64,000 nt of DNA, from positions 1-64,000 of the forward strand of contig JAEUMY010000022.1 of the NCBI GenBank assembly GCA_016791265.1, written 5' to 3'. Every line of letters begins with the position of its first letter. The stretch's first letter is position 1. Both the position numbers and the translations under genes were made by a program. The notes under the pieces were generated by a model that saw nothing but the letters and a program-made list of their open reading frames with translations, was not told the DNA's origin and searched no databases. The stretch comes from Betaproteobacteria bacterium (GTDB taxonomy: Bacteria; Pseudomonadota; Gammaproteobacteria; Burkholderiales; Usitatibacteraceae). Positions 61,499 through 64,000 of this stretch are shown piece by piece.

Positions 61499-61948
61499 AT
61501 GAGCATTGTCGACAACAGAAAGGCATTCCACGATTACTTCATCGAGGAATGGTATGAAGCGGGGCTGGTCCTGGAAGGCTGGGAGGTCAAGGCCATCCGC
61601 GCTGGCCGCGCCCAGATCAAGGAGGCGTACATCATCGTGAAGTCGGGCGCGCTGTGGATGATCGGCTCGCATATCAGCCCGTTGCCTGAAGCATCCACGC
61701 ATGTAAACCCCGATCCGGTTCGTACCCGAAAACTGCTGCTGCATGGCGAGGAGATCAACAAGCTCATCGGCAAGGTCGAGCGAGCCGGCTACACACTGGT
61801 GCCGCTCAACTTTCATTACAGCAAAGGCCGCATCAAGCTGGAGATCGGCCTCGCCAAAGGCAAGAAGCAGCACGACAAGCGCGCCACGGAGGCGGAGAAG
61901 GATTGGAAGCGCGAACAGCAGCGGCTGCTGAAGCGGTCAAACCGCTGA
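61499..61948 (+). CDS. smpB: tmRNA-binding protein SmpB
   Basis: A 149-residue SmpB, the partner of tmRNA in rescuing stalled ribosomes. [39 protein letters not shown] and [12 protein letters not shown] match the OB-fold and basic C-terminal tail. The ATG at 61499 gives the standard family start. It is divergent from lexA; the ssrA gene is not seen in the window. Confidence 0.97.
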
Positions 61949-62238: not shown

Positions 62239-62277
62239 GTCGGAGAACACGACCTTTCAAGCACAACGCGAAAACAA

Positions 62278-62306
62278 AAAAAGTCCGGCGCAAGGCCGGA
62301 CTTTTT
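62278..62306. terminator. Bidirectional hairpin terminator
   Basis: Perfect 12-bp arms AAAAAGTCCGGC (62278-62289) and GCCGGACTTTTT (62295-62306), loop GCAAG. It serves the small membrane protein gene on the plus strand and, on the minus strand, follows a 19-nt tRNA-His end remnant. Confidence 0.85.
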
Positions 62307-62328
62307 GTTTGGGGTGGCTAATGGGATT
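62284..62328 (-). repeat. Direct repeat copy 1: terminator arm plus tRNA-His end
   Basis: This 45-bp segment matches 62465-62508 with one substitution and one indel. Bases 62310-62328 equal the last 19 nt of a tRNA-His gene (CCA end included); beyond 62328 the match stops. Looks like a partial duplication of the tRNA 3' end and its terminator. Confidence 0.8.
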
Positions 62329-62360
62329 GTGGTCGTCGCGATTGCATCTCGCGCCGCCCA

Positions 62361-62414
62361 TCCCGCGGAGCGGGACCAGCCTTCGGCTGTCCTGCGCAAG
62401 TCCACTGGACTTGC
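62361..62414. repeat. Three consecutive perfect hairpins
   Basis: Inverted repeats follow each other: TCCCGC-GGA-GCGGGA (62361-62375), CAGCC-TTC-GGCTG (62377-62389) and GCAAGTCCA-C-TGGACTTGC (62396-62414). They lie between the two tRNA-His remnants and are followed by TCGAACCCC, which resembles a tRNA T-arm. No protein is supported across 62330-62450. Confidence 0.75.
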
Positions 62415-62455
62415 TGGTCGAACCCCGGTGTCTCCTTCACCCAAGCCGCAATCCC

Positions 62456-62490
62456 AAACAAAAATCCGGCACAAGGCCGGATTTTTGTTT
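62456..62490. terminator. Hairpin terminator after tRNA-His fragment
   Basis: Perfect 15-bp arms AAACAAAAATCCGGC (62456-62470) and GCCGGATTTTTGTTT (62476-62490), loop ACAAG. On the minus strand it directly follows the tRNA-His 3' end and was probably the terminator of the intact tRNA gene. Confidence 0.85.
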
Positions 62491-62535
62491 GGGGTGGCTA
62501 ATGGGATTCGAACCCACGACAACCGGAATCACAAT
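62490..62535 (-). pseudogene. tRNA-His (GTG) 3' fragment, probable att site
   Basis: The minus strand reads ATTGTGATTCCGGTTGTCGT followed by GGGTTCGAATCCC and ATTAGCCACCCCA, identical in kind to the anticodon loop (GTG), variable loop, T-arm and acceptor end of tRNA-His. The 5' half is missing: beyond 62535 the sequence no longer matches. This is the pattern left when an integrative element recombines at the anticodon region of a tRNA gene and displaces its 3' part. The intact gene should lie at the other end of the element, outside this window. Confidence 0.85.
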
Positions 62536-62632
62536 ATTCAGGACGTGGGTGCCAGCAATGTTAGTGCCTTGATTTTCTTGAGTTCGCGGCGGCGCAAAGT
62601 CGCCTGAATCGCTCTGGAACCGGTACAGATGT

Positions 62633-62671
62633 GGCACACATCCGGCACACCCTGGCGAAAAGGTGGCACAC
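62633..62671. repeat. Phased GGCACAC direct repeats
   Basis: GGCACAC occurs at 62633-62639, 62644-62650 and 62665-62671, with start spacing of 11 and 21 bp, about one and two helical turns. It lies 98 bp from the tRNA-His fragment. Arm-type sites of an integrase or a regulator operator are possible. Confidence 0.5.
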
Positions 62672-62693
62672 CTTCAGCCAAGGAGATCAGCCC

Positions 62694-63140
62694 ATGCCCC
62701 GCCTTATCGCAGCAATCCTGACCAGCGCGCTCGCGCTCAACGCACCAGCTCACGCCACGCAGAACCCGATCGCCCTACCCCAACTGTACGGATCGTACGC
62801 CACGACGCCCGCCGGGCCGCCGGTGCTGTCGATGACCAACAAGTTTTTCAAGGCGCGCGCGCTGGCGCAGGCGTTCGATCCGATCTATGAAGAGCGCGAG
62901 AGCATGCTCAGCCAGGACGCACTGGCCGAGCTGGGACTGCGCGCGCTGGATCCACGTCAGCCGGTGAAGGTGGTCAACGTGTACGCCGAGGTGATCGGCC
63001 CGGACGGGCGCACGACGCGGCTGGGCCCGCTCGAATCCTTTGTGCCGATAAGCCCGGCCGAGGTTGTGTTCATCGCACCAGGCAAGCCGGTGCGCGCGTT
63101 CAAGGTGTTGAGCTTTGTCGAGACGGAGAACAATCGCTAA
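62694..63140 (+). CDS. Hypothetical secreted protein of the element
   Basis: A 148-residue protein whose ATG has an AGGAG site 8 bases upstream. Residues 1-22 look like a signal peptide (RLIAAILTSALALNAPAHA, cleavage near AHA-T). The mature part PIALPQLYGSYATTPAGPPV continues with SFVPISPAEVVFIAPGKPV. It has the style of integrating-conjugative-element proteins similar to the TIGR03751-type lipoprotein/secretion neighbours, but I do not recognise a family with certainty. First gene inside the presumed element. Confidence 0.65.
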   Translation: MPRLIAAILTSALALNAPAHATQNPIALPQLYGSYATTPAGPPVLSMTNKFFKARALAQAFDPIYEERESMLSQDALAELGLRALDPRQPVKVVNVYAEVIGPDGRTTRLGPLESFVPISPAEVVFIAPGKPVRAFKVLSFVETENNR

Positions 63141-63148
63141 AAAAACAC

Positions 63149-63198
63149 TTGACAAGAAGATACGCAATGCGTATATTTTGAATTGTGCGCTATGCACA
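63149..63198 (+). promoter_or_regulatory. Promoter with two dyad operators, module 1
   Basis: TTGACA (63149-63154) and TATATT (63172-63177) are 17 bp apart. The palindrome ATACGCA-A-TGCGTAT (63160-63174) overlaps the -10. A second dyad TGTGC-N5-GCACA (63184-63198) lies just downstream, at about +1 to +15. A conserved leader ending in GGGGTAAGGAATCAAG provides the ribosome-binding site for the next gene. The same arrangement recurs at 63624-63673. Confidence 0.8.
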
Positions 63199-63234
63199 CA
63201 CCGCGCCTCGGGTTATCAGGGGTAAGGAATCAAG

Positions 63235-63549
63235 ATGAACATGAATCGCAACGAAGTCATTGCAGCAATTAAGGCCGCCCTGAAGGCACGCTCGGGCAAG
63301 ACCTGGAGCGTCACCGGCGGCCGCGGCACCGCATACGGCTGGATCACCATCAGCTCGCCGCCGGCACGCCGCCTGGAGTTCGGCTACATGTCGGCCGAGG
63401 ATCGTGCCGAGTTGGCCAAGCTGCTCGGTAAATCGTCGGTCCACCAGCAAGGCGAATCCATCCCTGCGGCGTCGGACTACTATCAGGAGTACATTGACCG
63501 CGCCAACGGCCGGACGCCGAGCAAGATTGGCCAGCCCTACTGGGACTGA
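63235..63549 (+). CDS. Small element-encoded protein, LPD29-like
   Basis: A 104-residue protein starting MNMNRNEVIAAIKAALKARS; a second ATG two codons on is an alternative. The stretch SGKTWSVTGGRGTAYGWITI, then PPARRLEFGYM and IPAASDYYQEYIDRANG, resembles the LPD29 domain, a small domain found in large polyvalent proteins and as stand-alone proteins on mobile elements. I rely on recall of the pattern, so the name is tentative. It is expressed from module 1 and followed by a hairpin terminator. Confidence 0.7.
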   Translation: MNMNRNEVIAAIKAALKARSGKTWSVTGGRGTAYGWITISSPPARRLEFGYMSAEDRAELAKLLGKSSVHQQGESIPAASDYYQEYIDRANGRTPSKIGQPYWD

Positions 63550-63563
63550 CTAGAAAGGCAAAT

Positions 63564-63590
63564 CCCGTGCCAGCAACACGCTGGCACGGG
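63564..63590 (+). terminator. Hairpin terminator
   Basis: Perfect 11-bp arms CCCGTGCCAGC (63564-63574) and GCTGGCACGGG (63580-63590), loop AACAC, followed by A6 and a T-run at 63599-63603. It separates the two expression modules. Confidence 0.7.
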
Positions 63591-63623
63591 AAAAAATATT
63601 TTTCGATTTTCTGCAAAAAATGC

Positions 63624-63673
63624 TTGACTAAAATATACGCCTTGCGTATATTTACACCTGTGCACAACGCACA
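63624..63673 (+). promoter_or_regulatory. Promoter with two dyad operators, module 2
   Basis: TTGACT (63624-63629) and TATATT (63647-63652), 17 bp spacing. The dyad TATACGC-N3-GCGTATA (63634-63650) overlaps the -10, and TGTGC-N5-GCACA (63659-63673) lies downstream. The leader shares CCTCGGGTTA and CAGGGGTAAGGA with module 1. Bases between the dyads differ from module 1, which argues that the dyads are under selection. Confidence 0.8.
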
Positions 63674-63711
63674 CACCGCACCTCGGGTTAGCAGGGGTAA
63701 GGAGTCAAGCA

Positions 63712-64000
63712 ATGAGCAACGCAATCATCGAAGTCGCAGAGCGTTTCACCCACCTGCGCGAAGGCAACGAGAACGTCTGCAACGAGCGCATCACCGCCCG
63801 CGACGTGATCCGTCACGGCATCCGCAGCGCGTACAGCTACGCCTTCACGCTGGCCATGAGAAACGGCAACAAGACCGTCGGCCTGTTCAGCCAGACCACT
63901 TCATCCGACGACGAGCTGTCGGCCCATAAGGCCGCGATGGCTTTCGTGGATGAACTGTTCACGCCTGACGCGGTGGAGGAAGTCTGCCCGATGCTGCGAG
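63712..64000 (+). CDS. Partial small protein of the element
   Basis: Open to the right edge; the 96 visible residues begin MSNAIIEVAERFTHLREGNE and include VIRHGIRSAYSYAFTLAMRN and KTVGLFSQTTSSDDELSAHK. I do not recognise a family. The start is supported by the leader GGGGTAAGGAGTCAAGCA directly upstream, which matches module 1. The 3' end is not in the window. Confidence 0.65.
   Translation, partial: MSNAIIEVAERFTHLREGNENVCNERITARDVIRHGIRSAYSYAFTLAMRNGNKTVGLFSQTTSSDDELSAHKAAMAFVDELFTPDAVEEVCPMLR

Follow-up and report, generated by a model that had tools for sequence, protein, structure and literature searches.

Integration into tRNA genes by tyrosine integrases is well described, and an anticodon-centred site is one of the two common classes in tDNA-targeting islands (PMC4383910), while the thrW-integrating relatives SfIV, SfI and SfV share an att site of 46 bp (PMC3851460). 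Integrases that extend across attP are also already known, from Mx8 and SSV (PMC4383910), with the changed integrase end of Mx8 modifying specificity (PMC6070905). The locus described here almost certainly belongs with these systems: we read a fragment of tRNA-His as attL of a temperate prophage of siphovirus type, 46.1 kb long, which a P22-type tyrosine integrase inserted into tRNA-His. The architecture is already known and of a classic integration type, and the finding is right and ordinary.

The window, i.e., the whole stretch of DNA analysed, comprises the first 64 kb of contig C6 (260 kb), from a genome of 3.9 Mb available as a draft in 24 contigs. Towards its right-hand end, the window holds the following features:

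61499 to 61948, plus strand: smpB, the left host flank
62276 to 62328, minus strand: second partial copy, made of the last 19 nt of tRNA-His (62310-62328) and a terminator, 27 nt exact
62329 to 62456, no strand: host structured palindromic repeat, with its core GCGCAAGTCCACTGGACTTGCTGGTC at 62394-62419, between the second partial copy and the attL copy
62457 to 62493, minus strand: native intrinsic terminator of the host tRNA-His, a hairpin of −23.1 kcal/mol (z −8.2)
62490 to 62535, minus strand: attL core, the last 46 nt of tRNA-His from anticodon loop to CCA, an exact repeat of C6:108609-108654
62536 to 64000, plus strand: left end of the prophage, which continues past the window to C6:108608
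62694 to 63140, plus strand: left-arm prophage ORF of 148 aa, with a hydrophobic N-terminus resembling a signal peptide and no family match
63235 to 63549, plus strand: left-arm prophage ORF of 104 aa, no family match
63712 to 64000, plus strand: left-arm prophage ORF of 102 aa, running on to C6:64020, with a Pfam match below cutoff only

The reverse complement of 62490-62535, ATTGTGATTCCGGTTGTCGTGGGTTCGAATCCCATTAGCCACCCCA, is the 3′ half of tRNA-His, with a GTG anticodon, an anticodon loop of 7 nt (TTGTGAT) and an encoded CCA. An earlier note made from the sequence alone had recognized this half gene and, adjoining it, the original terminator, and both stand, the latter as the strong hairpin listed above. 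It had also called the 5′ half absent, and indeed the only tRNA genes that ARAGORN detects in the window are those for tRNA-Met and tRNA-Ser, with no complete tRNA-His. The described shift in gene content is likewise present, from smpB (its product up to 81% identical to betaproteobacterial SmpB, a comparison that puts the genome within the Betaproteobacteria) to small ORFs that begin at 62694.

Genome-wide, the 46-nt core has one further exact copy (C6:108609-108654, E 2.9e-17), which supplies the 3′ half of the genome's sole intact tRNA-His (C6:108609-108683). This gene lies 46.1 kb downstream, is followed by tRNA-Arg, tRNA-Pro and pnp, and has an integrase gene directly beside it, as the earlier note had anticipated when it proposed looking downstream for an intact tRNA-His with the same core:

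C6:107464 to 108672: tyrosine integrase (PF00589, 1.5e-34; phrog_1, 5.4e-67), ending at the intact tRNA-His

When the flanks of the two copies are compared directly, identity breaks off abruptly at both edges, and at the left junction the match to tRNA extends to 62535, where the anticodon loop has its 5′ edge, and no further. The element is thus bounded by an intact tRNA and a displaced, identical 3′ fragment in the same orientation, and the 46.1 kb between the two copies has a G+C content of 0.645, against 0.59–0.60 outside. The comparison with element-free genomes that the earlier note had suggested was made with six genomes from other genera of the same family, rather than of the same species (G003, G006, G009, G012, G015 and G018): each carries smpB, one intact tRNA-His, tRNA-Arg, tRNA-Pro and pnp, with no half copy, and the integrase has no counterpart in any of them at E ≤1e-40. 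There, smpB adjoins tRNA-His, at a short distance in most genomes and at ~1.2 kb in G018. Removing 46 kb and one copy of the core from the genome studied here gives the gene order of these relatives. The half gene is missing where the element is missing, contrary to what the earlier note had named as a refutation of its reading. The proposed integration boundary is therefore borne out by an exact repeat, an intact tRNA-His, an integrase with phage genes, and empty sites in relatives.

Functionally, the closest annotated relatives of the integrase are those of the P22 group, with 38% identity over 401 aa, its full length. In IMG/VR, integrase homologues in L168, L169, L172, L173, L177 and L178 have a tRNA-His core downstream of int, 42–44 of its 46 positions identical, and in all six the tRNA sequence yields to phage sequence right after CACAAT, as it does in the prophage. 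In our reading, attP carried a 46-nt segment of tRNA-His, which the P22-type integrase recombined with the corresponding gene of the host (attB), the anticodon stem presumably providing the two core-binding arms. We infer that the crossover base probably lies within the anticodon loop, because the 5′ edge of that loop is where tRNA identity ends; this is the end point expected for the anticodon-loop class of sites, and it agrees with the anticodon-region crossover that the earlier note had put forward. Recombination joined the host 5′ half, with its host neighbours tRNA-Arg and tRNA-Pro, to a 3′ half brought in by the phage, so that attR now holds the intact tRNA-His, and it displaced the host's own 3′ half and terminator to a position beside smpB, as attL. 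The native terminator is thereby stranded 46 kb from the intact gene, and terminators resembling it follow the intact tRNA-His in the prophage-free relatives G001, G007 and G021. Directly behind the CCA of the intact tRNA-His, a hairpin and then TTTTT lie in antisense of the 3′ end of the phage int (z −4.2), and this phage-borne hairpin probably replaces the lost terminator of the restored gene.

Islands and integrative conjugative elements likewise use tRNA genes and tyrosine integrases, and several left-arm genes of the element lack a known family, so we considered whether the element might be an integrative conjugative element or a degenerate island and not a phage. This is very improbable given its gene content, which includes structural and packaging genes (a GpA-type large terminase (TerL), portal, head maturation protease and head decoration protein), tail genes (a tape measure of 1209 aa and a minor tail protein), a VapE/primase protein and a CI-like S24 repressor, with no conjugation genes recognised among the element proteins scanned. 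Since the structural and packaging genes are full-length and arranged in phage order, the element is a long-tailed prophage and seems intact; no circular attP or other excised form of it was seen. Both of its junctions rest on one draft assembly, and in G007 repeats near tRNA-His do occur at contig ends, as might be expected had the collapse of a short tRNA repeat created the two junctions artificially. That reading is the least probable of those weighed here, as the repeat spans just 46 nt, gene order on both flanks agrees with that in relatives, and the independent phage contigs from IMG/VR hold attP-like junctions with the same break point.

Closer to the tRNA itself, the fragment could be a decayed duplicate or pseudogene of tRNA-His with no relation to integration, for instance one part of the local tandem repeat of tRNA 3′ ends (62276-62328): the same spot also holds another, shorter partial copy of tRNA-His, overlooked in the earlier note, which has a terminator of its own, and such partial copies also occur in G001, G007 and G021, where there is no prophage. 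We hold this to be highly unlikely, as the 46-nt copy matches the intact gene at 100% identity and forms an exact boundary of the prophage, the same core serves the integrase homologues, and the intact gene adjoins the syntenic tRNA-Arg and tRNA-Pro at the other end of the element. Integration of a prophage hence remains our reading of the 46-nt fragment, and the 19-nt scrap at 62310-62328 is explained separately, by a lineage-specific host repeat that duplicates tRNA 3′ ends. The scrap was also considered as an older attL and this was ruled out, as the palindromic unit of 62329-62456 also adjoins the intact tRNA-His in the prophage-free G001, G007 and G021; the structured repeat was in place before the prophage and is no footprint of it.

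The host repeat is not confined to tRNA-His: on contig C17 of the same genome (L274) the palindromic unit stands behind tRNA-Lys, and after it come part of a tRNA-Lys end and another terminator, and a tRNA-Ser (L291) is trailed by a 69-nt duplication of its 3′ end and terminator. Of 399 genomes examined from the order, 4 contain the palindrome core, and these belong to two genera of a single family; loci L150-L152 likewise carry the structured repeat. In G007, several tRNA-His repeat units lie at contig ends (C42:48699-49198 and C47:29364-29632), some of them with a tRNA-His 5′ half fused to the palindrome, and are probably a longer tandem array that breaks the assembly. Aligned copies of the repeat keep a multibranch fold, in which, for 11 of the 51 pairs, at least one copy has both partners altered; because there are five sequences and the overall covariation term is unfavourable, a structured RNA is suggested and nothing firmer. 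For the tRNA-His fragment region, Rfam at a permissive threshold returned sub-cutoff noise only, and a search of the literature on bacterial repeats behind tRNA genes found nothing relevant. Speculatively, and with the odds against it, this apparently undescribed, lineage-restricted and highly structured repeat of ~150 bp, set between two copies of a tRNA 3′ end and terminator, might be an RNA that mimics tRNA, or else a very small mobile unit by which tRNA 3′ ends become duplicated.

At the right end of the prophage, the int ORF stays open through the core, such that the lysogen form of the integrase has 402 aa and ends in ...NRNHNPGLYR, encoded in antisense of the tRNA. In the attP form, int is predicted to read into the left arm instead, giving a protein of 420 aa that would end in ...NRNHNIQDVGASNVSALIFLSSRRRKVA (end SRRRKVA). 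We infer from these reading frames that integration would swap the C-terminus of the integrase (402 versus 420 aa), and, as the catalytic domain ends well upstream of the altered tail, only a non-catalytic tail changes. Among the homologues, int reads the core in another frame in L168 and L169 and stops before it in L172 and L177. Because close homologues thus change frame or stop before the core, a conserved role for the integrase tail is doubtful, and we regard a conserved function of a tail encoded by tRNA antisense as a weak candidate.

Evolutionarily, the best identity of the prophage terminase to known phages is 43%, and a DNA search of INPHARED with the first 17.5 kb of the prophage gave no match except the tRNA itself, which leaves this portion without a near relative in INPHARED. 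Within the left arm, two promoter-like stretches of 95 nt (63140-63234 and 63615-63709), 82% identical, lie upstream of two of the prophage ORFs, and each has an inverted repeat (ATACGCAATGCGTAT / ATATACGCCTTGCGTATAT) between its −35-like and −10-like boxes; the inverted repeats may be a shared operator for lysogen-expressed genes. Farther along, a prophage gene at C6:101450-102988 carries a SWIB/MDM2 domain (3.9e-24), a domain that is uncommon in phages. Elsewhere in the same genome (C15:230900-231041), there are two adjoining tRNA-like genes whose anticodons ARAGORN left unresolved (tRNA-???).

The prophage additionally carries a diversity-generating retroelement, outside the window at C6:96913-105320:

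C6:96913 to 97497 and C6:103014 to 103541: target proteins with Lcl_C domains
C6:103571 to 103933: Avd
C6:103911 to 105320: reverse transcriptase (RT)
C6 ~104095 to 104197: template repeat

Over 103 nt, the mismatches between template and variable repeats fall at template adenines in 14 of 16 and 11 of 12 cases (hypergeometric p 5e-7 and 6e-6, respectively).

Taken as a resource, the locus provides an exactly bounded, apparently complete temperate phage from a poorly sampled betaproteobacterial lineage, whose retroelement is a ready case for studying target variation. It also adds a tRNA-His-specific family of P22-type integrases, with attP cores that break off at one and the same base in several uncultured phages. 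For annotation, it urges caution, since the half tRNA and the tRNA-derived integrase tail are products of integration.

Compared with known systems, the prophage resembles the P22 group (Lederbergvirus) in its integrase, 38% identical over the full length, but the P22 target is tRNA-Thr (thrW) and the target here is tRNA-His, making the prophage a relative with another target. In phage L of that group, int runs toward an opposite-strand tRNA-like fragment that holds attP, with a terminator behind it, and the arrangement here is similar, except that the prophage int ORF continues through the core whereas that of phage L, as annotated, ends ahead of this fragment. The prophage further differs from the P22 group in its GpA-type terminase, its long-tailed type and its retroelement. 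The latter has the RT, Avd, template repeat and targets with A-specific differences of known diversity-generating retroelements, an ordinary architecture except for its two targets, one of them ~6 kb away. With the Mx8 phage of Myxococcus, in which attP lies inside int (PMC6070905, PMC4383910), the prophage shares an int that reads across attP and would gain a new 3′ end on integration; in the prophage, by contrast, only the non-catalytic tail changes, and any effect on integrase activity is putative. Finally, a regenerated tRNA gene and a displaced 3′ fragment at the two ends are shared with the tDNA-targeting islands of the Islander catalogue (PMC4383910), from which the prophage shows no difference in principle, and of which it is one more example.
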